DNA from: a virus
Reading direction: 5' to 3' (one strand)
DNA length: 22,498 bases
IMG/VR virus record: IMGVR_UViG_3300000117_000295
Location: 6-22,503 of that record
In this document: piece by piece, positions 3,007 through 18,435 of the stretch
Layout: every line of letters begins with the position of its first letter
Position numbering within the stretch: position 1 is the first letter of the stretch
Made by a program: the position numbers and the translations under genes
Notes under the pieces: generated by a model
The model's input: the letters and a program-made list of their open reading frames with translations, nothing else
What the model was told of the DNA's origin: nothing
Database searches by the model: none

Positions 3007-3075
3007 CTTAAAAAAATACCACTTCACAAGGTATCTTACACCAAATGTGCTGTTTTAATGGCACAGATTCCATGC

Positions 3076-3135
3076 TTTAAATAACACACGGTCCAAAACA
3101 AAAGGACTGTACAGCCGGCTTTCTTACAAAGAAAG
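3076..3135 (+). promoter_or_regulatory. Late-like box and structured leader with RBS hairpin
   Basis: TTTAAATA at 3076-3083 is one base from the late consensus. The leader that follows holds GTCC/GGAC arms around 3091-3106 and a perfect hairpin, CTTTCTT-ACA-AAGAAAG (3119-3135). The 3' arm of that hairpin overlaps the ribosome binding site (AAAGGA, 3132-3137) of the gene at 3146, so folding could limit its translation. Upstream, ATACC/GGTAT (3016-3034) and TGTGC/GCACA arms can also pair. The promoter role is tentative. Confidence 0.4.
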
Positions 3136-3145
3136 GAACTATAAA

Positions 3146-3379
3146 ATGGATATAGTTAAACAAATAAAAGGTTGGGCCGCAGGCCTTACTGATCTTGGTG
3201 TAGCACTTATTGCTTTAGGTGTTGTTGTTGAGGTCCTATTTAATGGGCAGGGCATTCCGTTCTGGCCAAACATTTCAGTGATTGGCAATATACAAGGTAT
3301 CATTGCTGGATTCAGTGAACAGGGTTTGATCGGCCTTGTTGCTATTTGGGTGTTATATCACATTTTCAATAAAAAATAA
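3146..3379 (+). CDS. Small two-TM membrane protein, holin candidate
   Basis: 77 aa with two hydrophobic segments (about 14-32, rich in Val, Leu and Ala, and 56-74), a short polar N-terminus, a loop containing GQGIPFWPNIS, and a basic tail FNKK. Size and topology fit a class II holin, but many small phage membrane proteins look alike and no family is recognised. The ATG is supported by AAAGGA 8 bases upstream, within a hairpin that may restrain translation. It is a single-gene unit closed by a strong terminator at 3411. Confidence 0.7.
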   Translation: MDIVKQIKGWAAGLTDLGVALIALGVVVEVLFNGQGIPFWPNISVIGNIQGIIAGFSEQGLIGLVAIWVLYHIFNKK

Positions 3380-7638: not shown

Positions 7639-7866
7639 ATGGCTTATAGAGAACCAAGACCAAAACAGGGTTTGACAGTAGAAGTACGCAACAATGACAT
7701 CAATCGTGCATGGCGTAAGCTCAAGCGTAGATTACAAGACGAAGGCATTATGCAAGAAATTCGCGACCGCAAACATTTTATCAAACCCAGTGAAAAACGT
7801 GCCAGAGCAAAGGCAGCAGGAAGAAAACGTTGGCTTAAGAAGAAACGCGAAATTGAGAATCAATAG
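7639..7866 (+). CDS. rpsU: Ribosomal protein bS21
   Basis: 75 aa, highly basic, with typical bS21 features: an N-terminal strand followed by NNDINRAWRKLKRRL, then a long Arg/Lys helix (KRARAKAAGRKRWLKKK). bS21 sits near the anti-Shine-Dalgarno end of 16S rRNA in the 30S subunit and aids initiation. Phage versions are known, mainly from marine phages, and are thought to exchange into host ribosomes to favour phage mRNA. GAGG just upstream and direct abutment with the preceding gene suggest co-translation. Many phage mRNAs here look leaderless, so a phage bS21 may matter for start selection; that link is inference. Confidence 0.9.
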   Translation: MAYREPRPKQGLTVEVRNNDINRAWRKLKRRLQDEGIMQEIRDRKHFIKPSEKRARAKAAGRKRWLKKKREIENQ

Positions 7867-7868
7867 AA

Positions 7869-7876
7869 GATAAATA
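7869..7876 (+). promoter_or_regulatory. Late-type box upstream of hsp20
   Basis: GATAAATA, one base from the late consensus, just after the bS21 stop. It would start a transcript near 7882 with a leader of about 100 bases before hsp20. Confidence 0.42.
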
Positions 7877-7904
7877 GAATTGAGGGTTGTGCCTTAATAC
7901 ACAC

Positions 7905-7982
7905 GCAGCGGTCAACGGTTAGCCGCCCGGACAGCCTTAGGGGGTCCATAACATATCTTGCTTATTATAAGGAGAAACAGAA
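7905..7982 (+). promoter_or_regulatory. ROSE-like RNA thermometer in the hsp20 leader
   Basis: The last hairpin pairs TCTTGCTT (7956-7963) with AAGGAGA (7969-7975) around the loop ATTAT, leaving one G (7960) bulged. The 3' arm is the ribosome binding site, 7 bases before the ATG. This is the signature of ROSE elements, in which a UUGCU-type strand with a bulged G masks the AGGA of small heat-shock genes in alphaproteobacteria. Two upstream hairpins, GCGGT/GCCGC (7908-7926) and GGAC/GTCC (7929-7947), match the multi-hairpin ROSE layout. Heat would melt the last stem and allow translation. Confidence 0.7.
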
Positions 7983-8411
7983 ATGACAAGATTAACCTCA
8001 CTCGACATCAATAAACTAACACCCTATGCAGTAGGCTTTGACAGAGTCTTTGATAACATGCATCGTTATCTTGAACATCAAGCCACCAGCAGTGGTTACC
8101 CACCTTACAACATTGTGAAAGATGGAAACAACTTCCAAATTGAAATTGCACTAGCAGGTGTAAAAATGGAAGATTTGGACATCGAAGTTGCAGAGGGTGT
8201 GTTAACAATCACACACGAACCACAAAGCGAAGATGAAAAAGTAGGCTTTGTTCATCGTGGTATTGCACAGCGTAAATTTAAACGTAATTTTACACTTGCT
8301 GATGATGTGGTTGTAAATGGTGCACGTTTAGAAAACGGTATGCTTTACATTGCACTTGAGCGTATCATCCCAGAAGAAAAGCAGCCTCGCAAGATTGCAA
8401 TTGAGGGCTAA
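7983..8411 (+). CDS. Hsp20 / IbpA-like small heat-shock protein
   Basis: 142 aa with a standard alpha-crystallin domain (about 40-132): FQIEIALAGVKMEDLDIEV, GVLTI, then ARLENGMLYIALER, and a C-terminal IAI that matches the IxI motif used for oligomer assembly. It is an ATP-independent holdase that binds unfolding proteins. Hsp20 genes are common in marine T4-like phages, where a role in virion protein folding or stress tolerance is assumed. Its own box at 7869 and a ROSE-like leader suggest temperature-controlled translation. The closest neighbours, bS21 and ClpS, also act in protein synthesis and quality control. Confidence 0.92.
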   Translation: MTRLTSLDINKLTPYAVGFDRVFDNMHRYLEHQATSSGYPPYNIVKDGNNFQIEIALAGVKMEDLDIEVAEGVLTITHEPQSEDEKVGFVHRGIAQRKFKRNFTLADDVVVNGARLENGMLYIALERIIPEEKQPRKIAIEG

Positions 8412-8423
8412 ATTTTGATAAGT

Positions 8424-8451
8424 ACAGTGAGAGGGGAGACTCTCTCACTGT
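8424..8451 (+). promoter_or_regulatory. Strong hairpin in the clpS leader
   Basis: ACAGTGAGAG (8424-8433) pairs perfectly with CTCTCACTGT (8442-8451) around an 8-base loop. No T-run follows, so it is not a standard terminator; AGGAG of clpS begins 4 bases later. It could protect or separate the clpS message, serve as an RNase processing site between hsp20 and clpS, or affect ribosome access. Confidence 0.6.
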
Positions 8452-12344: not shown

Positions 12345-13190
12345 ATGTTTATGCGTATTATACCCATACTCTTAACGCTAGTACTCGCCGGATGTGGAGC
12401 ACACACTACAGGTGTACACAAGCAACCTGAACTAGCCCCTTTGCCAGTGCCTGTTATAGCAGAGCTCCCTGAGTTAGATGGCCAAAAGATTCCAATTGCA
12501 GTATATGGTTTTTTAGACAAAACAGGACAGCGCAAACCCAACGAAAGATTTAGTCAACTAAGTTCAGCAGTCACACAAGGTGCTGAAGTGTATGTTATTG
12601 ACGCACTTAAAAACATAGGCAACGAAACTTGGTTCACAGTATTAGAACGTAACAGTTTACAAAACCTCACAAAAGAAAGACAACTCATCCGTAGCACAGC
12701 AGAAACCTTTGATGATGGCAAATCGCCTCTCAAGGCACTAAAGTATGCTGGCTTGCTTATTGATGGTGGTGTTGTGGGGTATGACAGTAATATCACTAGC
12801 GGAGGCATAGGTGCAAGATACTTTGGTATTGGCGCTAGTACAGAATATAGAACAGATCAAATAACAGTAGCAATGCGTATCATCAGTGTACAAACCGGTG
12901 AAATATTGCTTACAGTGTTGACTCAAAAAAGCATCGCAAGTCACAGTAGTGGCGCAGATGTATTTAGGTTCCTTGATTTAGGTACCAAAGCCCTGGAGGT
13001 TGAGGCAGGGATGGCGGTGAACGAACCTACTAGTTATGCAGTAAAAGCAGCAGTCGAAGCAGCGGTTGCAGAACTGGTAAAACAAGGAGAACAAAAAGGC
13101 TTTTGGAAATTCAAAGGAAAAAACTATGGCAATGTACCCATTGGTTATTATCCTAACGGAAAGCCCAAAACTGCAGGAGAAAACAAATGA
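12345..13190 (+). CDS. csgG: Curli secretion channel lipoprotein CsgG
   Basis: 281 aa (E. coli 277). The lipobox LAGC puts the lipidated Cys at 17, as in CsgG. Family blocks are clear: IPIAVYGFLDKTGQ, AVTQGAEVYVIDAL, WFTVLERNSLQNLTKERQ, GGIGARYFGIGAS and the C-terminal SYAVKAAVEAAVAELVKQG. CsgG forms a nonameric outer-membrane pore that exports curlin subunits. The loop after RKP that forms the constriction (Y51, N55, F56 in mature E. coli CsgG) reads NERFSQL, so the pore eyelet differs. The gene starts 3 bases after csgF and overlaps the curlin gene by ATGA. Only a weak ribosome site is present, suggesting coupling to csgF. Confidence 0.93.
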   Translation: MFMRIIPILLTLVLAGCGAHTTGVHKQPELAPLPVPVIAELPELDGQKIPIAVYGFLDKTGQRKPNERFSQLSSAVTQGAEVYVIDALKNIGNETWFTVLERNSLQNLTKERQLIRSTAETFDDGKSPLKALKYAGLLIDGGVVGYDSNITSGGIGARYFGIGASTEYRTDQITVAMRIISVQTGEILLTVLTQKSIASHSSGADVFRFLDLGTKALEVEAGMAVNEPTSYAVKAAVEAAVAELVKQGEQKGFWKFKGKNYGNVPIGYYPNGKPKTAGENK

Positions 13191-13906
13191 GAAGCGCAGT
13201 AAAATTGTTGGCTATCTCGAGCATTGTACTTTTTTCAAGTATGGCATTTGCAAATGACATTTACATTACGCAAAGTGGCGATACCTTGGATTTAGACATT
13301 GTACAAGATGGTACCGACAACGTAATCGGAAATTCAACCACCGCAGTAAGCCTAACCGGCGATGATATGTCATTTGACATTAATCAGACTGGTAGTTATA
13401 ACACTATAACTGCAGTCATCAAAGGTGATACTTACACAGGTGATTGGGACATTACAGGTGATAGTAACGAAATAGATTTGTTATGTAGTAGCACAACCAC
13501 AGGTAGTTGTGATACAGTAACATTGACTGTTGCTGCAACTGGTGATGACAACGATTTCACAATCAACATTGGTGAAACCAGTGATAGTGATAGTGCAACT
13601 GTAGCCTTTACAGTAACAGGCGACAACAACATTATCGATTCTACACTAAATGGTACAAATGCAAACATTACCGTAGCACTTAATAACAGTGCTAGTCTAT
13701 CAACTAACAGTGCAAACAGTGACGAAGGCGTTGCAGTTACACTTGATGTGAGTGGAAACGGTGATAGTGCAGGACATACTGTTGACCTAGATATCACAGG
13801 TGGCGGCGGTACTGTTGATGTTACACAAAGTGGCATCTACGACAATACTGTTGATCTAACCATTGCTGGTGATGACTTCGATGTTGACATTAGCCAGAGC
13901 GACTAA
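13187..13906 (+). CDS. Curlin-like secreted repeat protein 1 (candidate amyloid)
   Basis: 239 aa. A signal peptide (1-22, ending MAFA) is followed by NDIYITQSGD and IVQDGTDNVI, which fit the curlin pattern of Q-x-G-x-x-N repeats. The rest is a series of 20-25-residue units rich in Thr, Asp, Gly and Asn (TGDDMSFDINQTGSYNTI, TGDDNDFTINIG, TGDNNIID, VTQSGIYDNTVDL), very acidic, almost free of Lys and Arg, with two Cys near 95-105. The repeats are looser than in E. coli CsgA. It overlaps csgG by ATGA, as expected for a substrate of that channel. A long beta-solenoid or amyloid is predicted; polymerisation is unproven. Confidence 0.8.
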   Translation: MRSAVKLLAISSIVLFSSMAFANDIYITQSGDTLDLDIVQDGTDNVIGNSTTAVSLTGDDMSFDINQTGSYNTITAVIKGDTYTGDWDITGDSNEIDLLCSSTTTGSCDTVTLTVAATGDDNDFTINIGETSDSDSATVAFTVTGDNNIIDSTLNGTNANITVALNNSASLSTNSANSDEGVAVTLDVSGNGDSAGHTVDLDITGGGGTVDVTQSGIYDNTVDLTIAGDDFDVDISQSD

Positions 13907-13908
13907 CA

Positions 13909-15042
13909 ATGTATAGAACAGTTTTCGTAACTCTTACATTGTTAGTTCTCTCGGCCACGCAGGGACTCGCCTCCATAGGTGATGTTATTGAACAAAAAGG
14001 CAATAGCATGATTGAGCGCCGTGGAGGCGAAGAACTGTTGGTGGACAAAGGAACAGATGTTGAAAGTTATGATACTGTTAAAACAGCAAAAGGTCGAACT
14101 GCTATTGAGTTTGTTGACGACACGCGAGTAGATGTCACTGAACACAGTAAACTTGTTATAGACGAATTCGTCTATGACCCTAACACAAAGACTGGTGCTC
14201 TAAGTATAAAGGCAGCACTTGGCACAATTCGCTATGCCAGCGGTCAAATAGCAAAGAATTCTAGACAGAACATTAAGATAAGAACTCCCACTGCAACTAT
14301 TGCTGTACGCGGTACAGACTTTAGTATGAGTGTGGATGAGTTTGGTCAAAGTACTGTAATACTGTTACCCAGTTGTACACAAATAGGAAGCAAAGCATTG
14401 TGTACAGTTGGAGAAATCTCTGTGGAGTCGGACATGGGACAAGTAGTTCTCAACCAAGCCTTCCAAGCCACTACTGTTTCAGCTATTGATTCAGCTCCAC
14501 AGAGACCCTTGCTACTAGATCCAGACGAAACATTCATCAACAATCTTATAATTGTGCGCAAACCTGTGTACGATGATGAAGAACTAGAACGGCAGAGAGC
14601 AAAGCAAATAGCCAATATATTAGACATAGACTTTTTAGAGATTGATGTTCTTGAACGAGACTTGCTTTACTTGGATGAAGAAGACACATGGTATACACTA
14701 TTGGATTACGATCCTCTGGCACTGGAGTTTTTATTTGATGCACTAGAAGCAAGTAATAAAAGACTAGCGGCAATTCTAAAAAGTGAGTTTGATGACATTT
14801 TTAATGAAACAATATTTGGATATGATCCGATATTGAACATTGCAATCACAGATGAAAATCCTGACTTTGTTGTAATAAGAGACAGCGGTACAGGAAATTA
14901 TATAAAACTGAGACTGAGCCAGAACTATGCTTATAACCTAACCATAGATCAAGGCGTAGGAAACAGGATAGACGATTTTAAGTTGAGTATAGACAGTGCG
15001 ATACCTGCTAGTAATGACATTAATATTTTTCAGTCTCAATAG
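13909..15042 (+). CDS. Exported FecR-domain protein, 377 aa
   Basis: Signal peptide 1-21 (LTLLVLSATQGLA). Residues about 22-165 form a FecR domain: ASIGDVIEQKGNSMIERRG, DTVKTAKGRTAIEFVDDTRVDV, SIKAALGTIRYASG and RTPTATIAVRGTDF are typical. These domains sit in the periplasm, in sigma-regulator proteins or as surface-associated modules. No transmembrane helix follows, so it is not a FecR-type signal transducer; it looks like a soluble periplasmic or secreted protein. The C-terminal part (210-377) is acidic with leucine-rich helices, then a beta-like end. It lies between the two curlin-like genes, 2 bases after the first, and may chaperone, anchor or gate their assembly; this is inference. Confidence 0.85.
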   Translation: MYRTVFVTLTLLVLSATQGLASIGDVIEQKGNSMIERRGGEELLVDKGTDVESYDTVKTAKGRTAIEFVDDTRVDVTEHSKLVIDEFVYDPNTKTGALSIKAALGTIRYASGQIAKNSRQNIKIRTPTATIAVRGTDFSMSVDEFGQSTVILLPSCTQIGSKALCTVGEISVESDMGQVVLNQAFQATTVSAIDSAPQRPLLLDPDETFINNLIIVRKPVYDDEELERQRAKQIANILDIDFLEIDVLERDLLYLDEEDTWYTLLDYDPLALEFLFDALEASNKRLAAILKSEFDDIFNETIFGYDPILNIAITDENPDFVVIRDSGTGNYIKLRLSQNYAYNLTIDQGVGNRIDDFKLSIDSAIPASNDINIFQSQ

Positions 15043-15778
15043 TTTTGCTAATGACATATTCATTACGCAAAGTGGTGATAACTTTGAGGCGTTGATAAAC
15101 CAAAAAGGTCAAAACCAACAGATCAAAGGTGGCAATACCATAATCAGTATTGACGGTGGCACTACCACAACAAGTGCTCCTATTGATGGTGATGACAACT
15201 ATGTAAAAGTCTTACAAGGCACAAGTAATACAAGCAACAACTTGGTAGAACTTGATGTTGCTGGTGATACAAACTCAGTTATTGTGCTACAAGATAGAAC
15301 TGACATGGGCAATGATGACACTACAGCATATGGCAATCACACCAGCAGTATAAGATTGTTAGGAGACAACAACAATGTCAATACCATACAACGCAACAAT
15401 GGCACAAATGCTCAACAAGGACACAGTGTGGCAATAGACATAATAGGTAGCGGGACAGATATAGATGTAAAACAAATATCAGACTATGGCAAAACTGCAA
15501 ACTTAGACATAGATGCAGATGATGTAACAGTTGACATCTATCAAAACGGACACGGAAATCACACCATCAACTTGGATGTTGATAATAATGGAAGTACATT
15601 TGATTTAGACCAAGGATACAATCCTGGCAGCACTGGGCATGATATGAACATATCTACCAGCGGTGCTTATGCCAGCACTATAACAGTGGATCAACAAAGT
15701 AACACAGCACAAAGTTATTCACTATCACAAGACTGTCAAACCACAGGCGGTTGTTCAGTAGCCGTAACACAATACTGA
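14996..15778 (+). CDS. Curlin-like secreted repeat protein 2 (candidate amyloid)
   Basis: 260 aa from the GTG at 14996, giving the signal peptide MRYLLVMTLIFFSLNSFA; an ATG at 15014 is a shorter option that loses the basic residue. The mature start NDIFITQSGDNFEALINQKG mirrors the first curlin-like protein (NDIYITQSGD). Repeats continue as QxG/N-type units: DGDDNYVKVLQG, AGDTNSVIVLQD, LGDNNNVNTIQRN, VDIYQNGHGNHTI and ITVDQQSN. The end carries two Cys (QDCQTTGGCSVAVTQY). It overlaps the FecR gene by 47 bases in another frame. By analogy with csgA and csgB, one of the pair may nucleate and the other polymerise; which is which cannot be said. Confidence 0.8.
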   Translation: MRYLLVMTLIFFSLNSFANDIFITQSGDNFEALINQKGQNQQIKGGNTIISIDGGTTTTSAPIDGDDNYVKVLQGTSNTSNNLVELDVAGDTNSVIVLQDRTDMGNDDTTAYGNHTSSIRLLGDNNNVNTIQRNNGTNAQQGHSVAIDIIGSGTDIDVKQISDYGKTANLDIDADDVTVDIYQNGHGNHTINLDVDNNGSTFDLDQGYNPGSTGHDMNISTSGAYASTITVDQQSNTAQSYSLSQDCQTTGGCSVAVTQY

Positions 15779-15798
15779 AACAGAGAAGGAGAGAGCTC

Positions 15799-16239
15799 AT
15801 GGAAGGACTTAAACTTTTAATAACAGCAGGTGCAATACTGGCAAGTACCAGTGCATTCGCTGATAACAATAACCAAGCAATGAAACATTGCATGGATGTA
15901 GTAGGGTATGATCGTAATGCTCCTGTTGAAGAAAGAATGAATGATGTAGATTGGGCAGCAGCCGCAAGTTGCTATCATGCTTACAACAGCGCCATCTATA
16001 GACAGCAGATTGCTAATCTACGTGAATTATTAGCAGCAAACCCACGTTATAGATATCCAGGACAAAGCAACAACAGTTGTTGGGGTAAACCGCGAGAAAT
16101 GCCTTTTGAAAGTGCAACAATTAGTGCAACCCAATTTGGATTTACTGCAGGTGTAAGTTACAAGGACACCATGCCAGCAGGATGCTACGAAAACGGACCT
16201 TGGGACAACAGGGAGGGCACTCATGACTATGACGGATAA
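15799..16239 (+). CDS. Exported Cys-containing protein, 146 aa
   Basis: The ATG at 15799 is preceded by AAGGAGAGAG, and the start gives a clean signal peptide (LLITAGAILASTSAFA, cleavage before DNNN). The mature part has four Cys, enough for two disulfides in the periplasm, with a helical first half (ASCYHAYNSAIYRQQIANLRELL) and a Gly/Pro/Trp-rich second half. No family recognised. It follows the second curlin-like gene by 20 bases, so it probably belongs to the curli block as an accessory factor. Position alone suggests this. Confidence 0.72.
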   Translation: MEGLKLLITAGAILASTSAFADNNNQAMKHCMDVVGYDRNAPVEERMNDVDWAAAASCYHAYNSAIYRQQIANLRELLAANPRYRYPGQSNNSCWGKPREMPFESATISATQFGFTAGVSYKDTMPAGCYENGPWDNREGTHDYDG

Positions 16240-16378
16240 TCGTTGGGCAGCACTAATTGTTGCAGTACTGTGTGTAGCACTATTTGCAAACTATACATAT
16301 TACAAATACAGAGTGGATGTGATAAGGGGCAATATATCCTGGGACATACCAACTGCTAATTTGAATCCACTAAAATAA
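16223..16378 (+). CDS. Single-TM small membrane protein, 51 aa
   Basis: It starts MTMTDNRWAALIVAVLCVALF: one membrane segment at about 8-25, followed by a Tyr-rich, basic stretch and a short polar tail ending NPLK. GGGAGGG lies 5 bases upstream of the ATG at 16223, inside the previous gene, which it overlaps by 17 bases. A second ATG at 16229 is possible. No family is recognised. It is the last gene before the cyclase and may be an inner-membrane accessory of the curli block. Confidence 0.68.
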   Translation: MTMTDNRWAALIVAVLCVALFANYTYYKYRVDVIRGNISWDIPTANLNPLK

Positions 16379-16383
16379 ATTGT

Positions 16384-16391
16384 TATAAGTA
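16384..16391 (+). promoter_or_regulatory. Late-type box, leaderless start for the cyclase
   Basis: TATAAGTA, one base from the late consensus, ends 4 bases before the ATG at 16396, with no ribosome binding site. The 4-base gap is the same as at 2296 and 4405. The cyclase may therefore be transcribed separately from the curli genes. Confidence 0.5.
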
Positions 16392-16395
16392 ATAC

Positions 16396-18435
16396 ATGTT
16401 CAAGATTATAACACATTGGACAGTGGCAACAATCACAGCATTGTTGCTACTGTTTGCACATTTTCAAGACAGTACAGTGGTAGAAACACTGAGACTAAAA
16501 CAGTTTGATTTACTACAACAACAAGATGTTCCACAAACCAGTCAAGACATTGGCATTGTTGCCATTGATGAAGCAGCAATTGCTAAATTTGGACAATGGC
16601 CCTGGAAGCGTGATGTACTAGCAGAACTTATCTGGCAGTTGCGCGACCAAGGTGCAGGTGTTATTGTACTTCCAATTATTATGAGTGAACAAGATAGGCT
16701 AGGTGGCGATATGGACCTAGCACAAGCACTCGTTGATAACGCAGTTGTTATTGCACAAATAGGCAGCACAGATGTAGACCGCAACGGTGTGCCACGTGGT
16801 GTTGCAAAGATCAACGATCCACTGCCTTTCTTGTATGAATGGGATGGCATGCTGGGACCTATTCCTCTGTTGGGTGATAATGCACCCGGTGTTGGTGTTG
16901 TAAACACAGTGCCTGAAATAGATGGTGTAGTACGTCGTGTGCCACTGATAATGAAGATTGGTCAAGAAACTTATCCTGCACTGGCAGTTGAAGTTATTCG
17001 CGTTGCCACAGGCGCACCCAGTTACCAAATTAAAAGCAGTGCAGCGGGTGTAGAAAAAGTTCGCATACCAGGTTATCCAATTGTGAACACAGATGCCAAT
17101 GCACGAATATGGTTGCGTTATAACAAACAGTTCGAAACAGTGAGTGCAGCAAGTGATGACTTCGGTGGTTTTGCTGGACGCACAGTTATAGTTGCTCCCA
17201 CAGCAGCAGGCACTACAACAATGGTTGCTACACCTGTGGGTGAGAAGTACAGTTTTATACCAGCAGCAATCACATTGCAAACAATGATTGATGTTGATCA
17301 AATCACACGTCCATGGTGGGGTAGTATTGCAGAACTTACAGCAACAGGCATACTGGGTCTATTTTTAGTTGTGCTTGCACGTTTTACACCTTACTGGTTT
17401 GTAGGCGGTGCAGTGCTTGTGTTTGCAGGTGGTGCTGTGTACGCACCTTACTATGCGTGGACAACAAAACTATTTCTAATTGATGGCACCATGCCACTGA
17501 TAACAACTGTCATAACAGGCTTCCATGCAGTGTTCAACAGATTTGTATTAGAGTTCTTCCAAAAGCAACAGATCAAAAAGCAGTTTGGCACATATGTAAA
17601 TCCAACAGTTGTTGAAAGACTACAAAAAGATCCAAGCCTAATACGACTAGGCGGCGAAGAAAAGGTGCTAAGTTGTGTGATGACTGACATGCGTAACTTT
17701 ACAGGCCTGGGTGAAAGTTATGGCGCAGATGTCGAAGGCTTTACAAAAACAATTAATTCATATATGACTGCAATCACTGAACCTGTGATGCGCAATGAAG
17801 GCACAATGATCAAGTACATAGGTGATGCTAGTATGCACATACATGGTGCTCCACTTGATGACGAAAACCATGCTAGGACTGCAGTGCAGACTGCACTGGA
17901 AATGATTGATGCCTGTGAACAGTTCAATGAACAAAGACGTTTACAAGCAGTGGGAGGAGAAGATCCTGGTCCAGCGCCGCCCCGTGTAGGTTTGGGTGCA
18001 GGCGTTAACACAGGCAAAATACTAGTTGGCAACATAGGCAGTGAAAAGAAACTGGGCTATGACTGCTTGGGCGATCCTGTAAGTGTTGCTGCAAGACTAG
18101 AATCACAGACAAAAAGTTATGGTGTGTTGTTGATTGTGGGTCCTGACACTGTTGCTGCAACAAAAGATGACTTTGATTGGTGGGAACTAGATAACATTGC
18201 TGTCAAGGGCAAAGAAAAACCCTTGCGTATATATGCAGTACACAAACAAACACCCGAACATGTCAAATTCTTAAAGAACTATTATGCGGGTAATTGGGAT
18301 GTTTGTATAAGAGATTATAGGAAGTATCAACATGCTGCCCCCAAAATGGCACAGTACTATGATAAGATGATAGAGCGTTTGACTCAAGGAAAGCCTGCAG
18401 ACTGGGATGGAATATACCGAGCAACTAGTAAGTAA
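16396..18435 (+). CDS. CHASE2 - class III adenylate/guanylate cyclase
   Basis: 679 aa. One TM (about 7-23), a periplasmic CHASE2 domain (about 28-300; IGIVAIDEAAIAKFGQWPW is typical), three TMs (about 313-382), then a class III cyclase domain (425-615). Metal ligands D431 (VMTDMRNFT) and D477 (KYIGDASM) are present, as are K473 and D556, which favour ATP over GTP, and R567. The usual Asn of the GDxVNxAxRLE motif is S563 here. The expected product is cAMP, made in the cytoplasm in response to an outside signal. Some 60 residues after the catalytic domain form a helical tail. The gene starts from a late-type box and converges with the minus-strand run, overlapping it by 11 bases. Confidence 0.9.
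   Translation: MFKIITHWTVATITALLLLFAHFQDSTVVETLRLKQFDLLQQQDVPQTSQDIGIVAIDEAAIAKFGQWPWKRDVLAELIWQLRDQGAGVIVLPIIMSEQDRLGGDMDLAQALVDNAVVIAQIGSTDVDRNGVPRGVAKINDPLPFLYEWDGMLGPIPLLGDNAPGVGVVNTVPEIDGVVRRVPLIMKIGQETYPALAVEVIRVATGAPSYQIKSSAAGVEKVRIPGYPIVNTDANARIWLRYNKQFETVSAASDDFGGFAGRTVIVAPTAAGTTTMVATPVGEKYSFIPAAITLQTMIDVDQITRPWWGSIAELTATGILGLFLVVLARFTPYWFVGGAVLVFAGGAVYAPYYAWTTKLFLIDGTMPLITTVITGFHAVFNRFVLEFFQKQQIKKQFGTYVNPTVVERLQKDPSLIRLGGEEKVLSCVMTDMRNFTGLGESYGADVEGFTKTINSYMTAITEPVMRNEGTMIKYIGDASMHIHGAPLDDENHARTAVQTALEMIDACEQFNEQRRLQAVGGEDPGPAPPRVGLGAGVNTGKILVGNIGSEKKLGYDCLGDPVSVAARLESQTKSYGVLLIVGPDTVAATKDDFDWWELDNIAVKGKEKPLRIYAVHKQTPEHVKFLKNYYAGNWDVCIRDYRKYQHAAPKMAQYYDKMIERLTQGKPADWDGIYRATSK

Follow-up and report, generated by a model that had tools for sequence, protein, structure and literature searches.

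The question raised by this locus is whether the mRNA leader of a small heat-shock gene of a marine phage acts as an RNA thermometer. The 22,498-nucleotide stretch analyzed here (positions 6 to 22,503 of IMG/VR record IMGVR_UViG_3300000117_000295; hereafter, the window) comes from a virus record that is linear and 22,503 bases long. It contains, on the plus strand, hsp20 (7983..8411, with the ATG at 7983), predicted to encode a small heat-shock protein of 142 residues (Pfam HSP20, PF00011; E 6e-18), in agreement with an earlier note on this DNA that had read the gene as a phage hsp20. The neighboring genes encode ribosomal protein S21 (7639-7866) on one side and ClpS (8466) on the other. A perfect 10-bp inverted repeat without a T run (ACAGTGAGAG/CTCTCACTGT, 8424-8451) is found between hsp20 and clpS, immediately 5' of the clpS ribosome-binding site. 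Elsewhere, the region spanning 13187-18435 encodes a FecR-domain protein and a CHASE2 adenylate/guanylate cyclase, with adjoining secreted repeat proteins that are curlin-like in appearance, cargo that is unusual for a phage record.

Examination of the leader by RNAfold (7905-7985) revealed three hairpins, of which the last bears G7960 as a bulge. Two hairpins on the plus strand, assigned on the basis of RNAfold, of RNAalifold and pair counts in 69 phage leaders and of covariance-model alignment of the window, make up the element considered here. The first, H2 (7929-7947), includes a bulged G7934 and a CC/GG closing pair under its loop. In the second, H3 (7956-7975), the anti-Shine-Dalgarno (SD) sequence CUUGCUU (7957-7963) is paired across a 5-nt loop (7964-7968) with the AAGGAG SD sequence of hsp20 (7969-7974, plus strand), leaving G7960 unpaired. 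As such, UUGCU at 7958-7962 faces AGGAG, corresponding to a U(U/C)GCU motif in imperfect pairing with the SD. That CTTGCTT masks AAGGAG in the last hairpin had been proposed in the earlier note, and both motifs, like the start codon, were indeed found where it had placed them. A search for CTTGCTT-N(2-12)-AAGGAG gave a single match in the window and no match in 100 shuffled sequences. The fold energy of the leader was, however, no better than that of shuffled sequences (z 0.05 for 7905-7985; 0.13 for a longer leader), such that the claim had to rest on comparison of relatives.

Accordingly, hsp20 loci were collected from IMG/VR (sets of 70 and 80) and from phage isolates, yielding 100 distinct 60-nt leaders; 'Pseudomonas phage Y7' (L087), an unverified record that resembles bacterial DNA, was excluded. 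The motif lies directly 5' of hsp20 in 81 of the 100. The remaining 19 are mostly of one type, represented by locus L005, together with five bearing the variant UCUAGCUU, one truncated contig and one Bacteroidales locus; in L098, the element is found further upstream of hsp20. In the L005-type clade, the absence directly before hsp20 is only apparent, the element being found 5' of a preceding small ORF, where it would control a two-gene unit. This arrangement, with an ORF of some 65-70 codons preceding hsp20, is seen in L005, L010, L015, L033 and L061 (about 1225-1495). The five kinds of leader that lack UUGCU and carry UCUAGCUU retain the unpaired G. In L106, L112, L129-L131 and L133-L135, where UCUAGCUU replaces UCUUGCUU as the anti-SD sequence, it is the U-G pair beside the unpaired G that is changed.

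When 69 non-redundant phage leaders were aligned and folded together with RNAalifold, the hairpins at 7929-7947 and 7956-7975 were recovered, each with an unpaired G. Paired cells made up 92.6% of the alignment, as compared to 78.4% upon shuffling and 46-58% when the structure was slid, while cells with double changes numbered 147 versus 43 in the shuffled alignments. Covariation reached 0.425 versus 0.170 upon shuffling, a value equaled in none of 500 shuffles. One H2 pair is found as G-C (22), U-A (22), A-U (15) and C-G (2), while at the inner H2 pair, C-G is replaced by G-C and U-A. Within H3, covariation is seen at the outer pairs, whereas most of the core pairs hardly vary, since SD and anti-SD are both constrained; the signal therefore comes for the most part from H2 and from the outer pairs of H3. 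T7958, G7960, C7961 and T7962 are invariant in all 69 leaders, bearing out the earlier note's emphasis on the single bulged G of the last hairpin. Omission of the window's own clade left 94.9% of cells paired, again with 0 of 500 shuffles scoring as high.

Covariance models built from these leaders were next considered. Model R3, comprising 45 leaders and omitting the window's entire hsp20 clade, found the window leader at 33.7 bits (E 8.6e-6), the next best match in the window having an E value of 0.1, and also found 17 other members of that clade (E 1e-8 to 1e-16). The lack of covariance support in related phage leaders, which the earlier note had named as grounds for rejecting its proposal, was thus not what the 69 leaders and these hold-out matches revealed. 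A second model, R1, trained on phage leaders only, was applied to 14 genomes outside the training set, namely those of 13 cyanophages of many genera and the jumbo Pseudomonas phage 30-2. In each of the 14, a single match was obtained, at the start of hsp20 (E 1e-5 to 1e-11). Within the training genomes, matches elsewhere than the hsp20 leader had E values of 0.02 or worse. A weak second match of the ROSE models in the window (3074-3148; 15.9-18.8 bits, E about 0.1) ends exactly at the ATG of a 77-codon ORF; here, CUUUCUU could mask AAAGGA, without a bulged G.

No match was obtained with R1 in the three bacterial genomes tested first. Across 289 alphaproteobacterial genomes, R1 gave 19 matches at E 1e-3 or better, and the genes behind them encode Hsp20 (13), RpoH-type sigma factors (5) and DnaK (1), as named by reading of translations, with nine of the hsp20 loci backed by a phage Hsp20 profile. 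Thus, a model trained on phage leaders alone returned bacterial heat-shock genes in 19 of 19 cases. Rfam ROSE_3 gave matches in two further alphaproteobacterial genomes, both before ClpB by the same reading, and reached its threshold in none of these genomes. The alphaproteobacterial ROSE-like leaders include those at rpoH in L190, L192, L194, L205 and L207, at dnaK in L209 and at clpB in L182 and L183. The proposal that the virus mimics host control fits with these findings, as this element is also found on hsp20, rpoH and dnaK of marine-type alphaproteobacteria. Moreover, in a tree of 91 Hsp20 proteins, host and phage sequences were intermixed, with at least 5 label changes, as resolved by a quick method using few columns. 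Several of the bacterial copies lie on contigs of 0.8-1.3 Mb and are hence chromosomal. Together, the intermixing and the chromosomal copies suggest repeated exchange of leader plus gene.

ROSE-like elements, through which bacteria switch on such genes upon warming, are defined by a U(U/C)GCU sequence imperfectly paired with the SD, a bulged G and two to four hairpins, mostly at small heat-shock genes (PMC3669281; PMC11182007). In the window leader, the anti-SD motif, the single bulged G, two covariation-supported hairpins (H2 and H3) and a small heat-shock gene are all found, supporting its predicted assignment to this structural class as a phage ROSE-like leader. At the same time, no match of the window to Rfam ROSE (RF00435), ROSE_2 (RF01832) or ROSE_3 (RF02523) was obtained, either at the gathering threshold or at E values up to 10, such that the search with ROSE and ROSE_2 put forward in the earlier note came back empty; ROSE_2 likewise had no match in the complete virus record. 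Relatives scored 23-35 bits against ROSE_3 (threshold 43), the best reaching 35.3 bits (at the right position, with E 3e-6 when that leader was searched by itself), and 22-30 bits against RF00435 (best 29.5; threshold 45). Because the anatomy is present and the Rfam thresholds are missed, the leader is referred to as a ROSE-like element rather than as a member of an Rfam family.

The closest likeness is to ROSE_3: in both, the first of two hairpins has GAUGCC...GGGUC, the second has U(U/C)GCU, with its bulged G, facing AGGAG, and the start codon of a small heat-shock gene follows directly. The phage leader differs in that the window has no ROSE_3 match and its relatives stay below threshold, and in that the phage leaders often lie behind a T4-like late promoter. 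The two-hairpin plan is also common to the short ROSE-like element of Pseudomonas ibpA (PMC3669281). With ROSE (RF00435) and ROSE_2 (RF01832) of rhizobia and enterobacteria, the anti-SD motif, bulged G and gene class are shared, although the phage element is shorter, with two hairpins, and scores below threshold everywhere tested. Up to 2023, only lambda cIII and SPbeta blyA (fourU) were counted as phage RNA thermometers, with a sigma-70 thermometer case in Caudoviricetes having been added in 2024 (PMC10586365; PMC11182007). As proposed for the hsp20 leader, cIII and blyA involve a phage gene whose translation is controlled by mRNA structure (PMC10586365; PMC11182007), yet they represent other structural classes, other genes and single phages, as opposed to a core gene across many genera. 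In the open-access literature, no phage ROSE element was found, and the leader is not mentioned in the two papers on phage small heat-shock proteins that were searched.

Upstream of the element, 46 of 83 phage leaders have a T4-like late promoter word, NATAAATA, at 40-130 nt 5' of the start codon, mostly directly before H2, as compared to 2.2% of random 90-nt stretches from the same loci. As such, late transcripts would usually start at H2. In the window, the candidate promoter GATAAATA (7869..7876, plus strand), which resembles the T4-like consensus TATAAATA, lies instead 5' of an additional 4-bp hairpin, H0 (7888..7903, plus strand), with the conserved loop CCUUAAUA. H0 is the first half, and H1 (7908..7926, plus strand; conserved loop CA-N-GGUUA) the second half, of a separate tandem-hairpin element outside the ROSE core, identified by covariation in 23 relatives (89.3% paired; covariation 0.638 versus 0.252) and captured in model R2. 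Accordingly, where two further hairpins had been thought to precede the last, that at 7929-7947 was retained as part of the ROSE-like element, while that at 7908-7926 instead pairs up with 7888-7903. R2 also finds the tandem element away from hsp20 in other phages: in L040, it follows tRNA genes, about 0.9 kb from the ROSE element, and in phage Melnitz-3, it lies between the tmRNA gene and the late-transcription coactivator gene. The locations noted are 7888-7926 of the window, about 2310-2355 of L040 and 46553-46614 of MZ577098.1. This element (loops C(U/G)UAAUA and CA-N-GGUUA), which had no match in Rfam, occurs both with and without hsp20; pairing between the two loops (UAAU/GUUA) is conceivable.

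Taken together, these findings argue that the leader at 7929-7982 is a two-hairpin ROSE-like RNA thermometer, a reading to which we assign a probability of roughly 0.8. It is supported by sequence, conserved structure, covariation, the invariant bulged G and strict association with hsp20 in the phages and with hsp20, rpoH and dnaK in the bacteria, while temperature dependence, late transcription and benefit to the phage are what we infer. In the proposed mechanism, H2 would fold stably in the hsp20 mRNA and H3 would pair the SD with CUUGCUU through a weak helix broken by the invariant unpaired G7960, so that few ribosomes would gain access at low temperature. H3 would open upon warming, or under other conditions in which this helix is loosened, allowing Hsp20 to be made. 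Hsp20 would then add chaperone during infection, probably late, because many relatives have a T4-type late promoter directly before H2. Folding over temperature with an energy model predicted that the SD of the window opens with warming. The joint probability of an open SD at 20°C, however, did not differ between hsp20 leaders (median 0.018) and other genes of these loci (0.025; p 0.96), nor did the fold rise in SD opening from 20 to 42°C (8.1 versus 5.8; p 0.60), such that the energy model speaks neither for a thermometer nor for its exclusion. Non-canonical pairs, credited for sensing by ROSE elements (PMC11182007), are absent from the energy model used here.

The same leader could also be a putative site at which Hsp20 represses its own translation, this being its main role or one added atop a thermometer, with unfolded protein drawing Hsp20 off the mRNA during infection and aggregation, rather than temperature, being sensed. 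While we consider such autogenous control rather doubtful, there is precedent in Escherichia coli, where IbpA represses its own mRNA through a ROSE-containing 5' UTR and Arg93 is essential (PMC10474464). At the position of R97 of the window's Hsp20, an alignment of 84 proteins (one of Pseudomonas type, the others from phages) has Arg in 79 and Lys in the remaining 5. We take R97 to be the equivalent of IbpA Arg93 by way of the GIAxRxF motif. This motif is, however, common to class A small heat-shock proteins and hence not specific to autogenous control. Conservation of H2, a hairpin that does not touch the SD, speaks for feedback; the presence of the element before bacterial rpoH and dnaK, where feedback by Hsp20 is not an obvious logic, speaks against. 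By analogy, then, protein feedback may, tentatively, be a serious complement to, or a live rival of, the thermometer.

It is quite improbable that H3 is no more than a hairpin masking the SD and keeping hsp20 translation constitutively low, its ROSE likeness having been inherited with a captured host gene and serving no regulation in the phage. The computed SD accessibility, similar to that of other genes, would agree with this, as would the mixing of host and phage hsp20 (at least 5 changes), by which the gene may move along with its leader. Neither an unpaired G that is invariant in 69 of 69 leaders nor H2 pairing kept through many double changes is, however, required for merely setting a level, and in the L005-type clade, the element precedes the first gene even though hsp20 is the second of the pair. 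As to Rfam, the best match of the window leader was to the L2-Alphaproteobacteria ribosomal-protein leader, which could be tied to the upstream S21 context; with 17.8 bits against a threshold of 37.8 and several broken pairs in the second helix, this candidate was rejected. As all 14 untrained phages carry the element on hsp20 and not on a ribosomal gene, an L2-type leader is refuted in practice.

Returning to the thermometer, hsp20 belongs to the core genes of T4-like cyanophages (PMC3037559), and all of the cultured T4-like phages from the ocean that were examined have the element 5' of this gene. Judged from sequence, nearly all marine T4-like phages examined carry a ROSE-like leader on hsp20, in many cases with a T4-type late promoter immediately upstream. 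We lean slightly towards the broader view that ROSE-type thermometers are a standard part of this core gene, repeatedly moved between host and phage as a leader-plus-gene cassette and set behind a late promoter, such that late chaperone supply would follow temperature or protein-folding stress. Among T4-like ocean phages, one thermometer class would then recur on a core gene, as opposed to the few phage cases counted before, suggesting a reason why phages carry hsp20 at all, making it possible to test directly and at little cost whether temperature or folding stress is sensed by ocean phages, and bearing on how infection responds to warming. The covariance model, moreover, finds ROSE-like leaders missed by Rfam, including those of alphaproteobacterial rpoH and dnaK. 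Finally, a manA RNA (RF01745) was observed a few hundred bases 5' of hsp20 in L012, L014, L016, L021 and L022 (about 950-1300), as well as near hsp20 in P-SSM5 (L172, 1-106).
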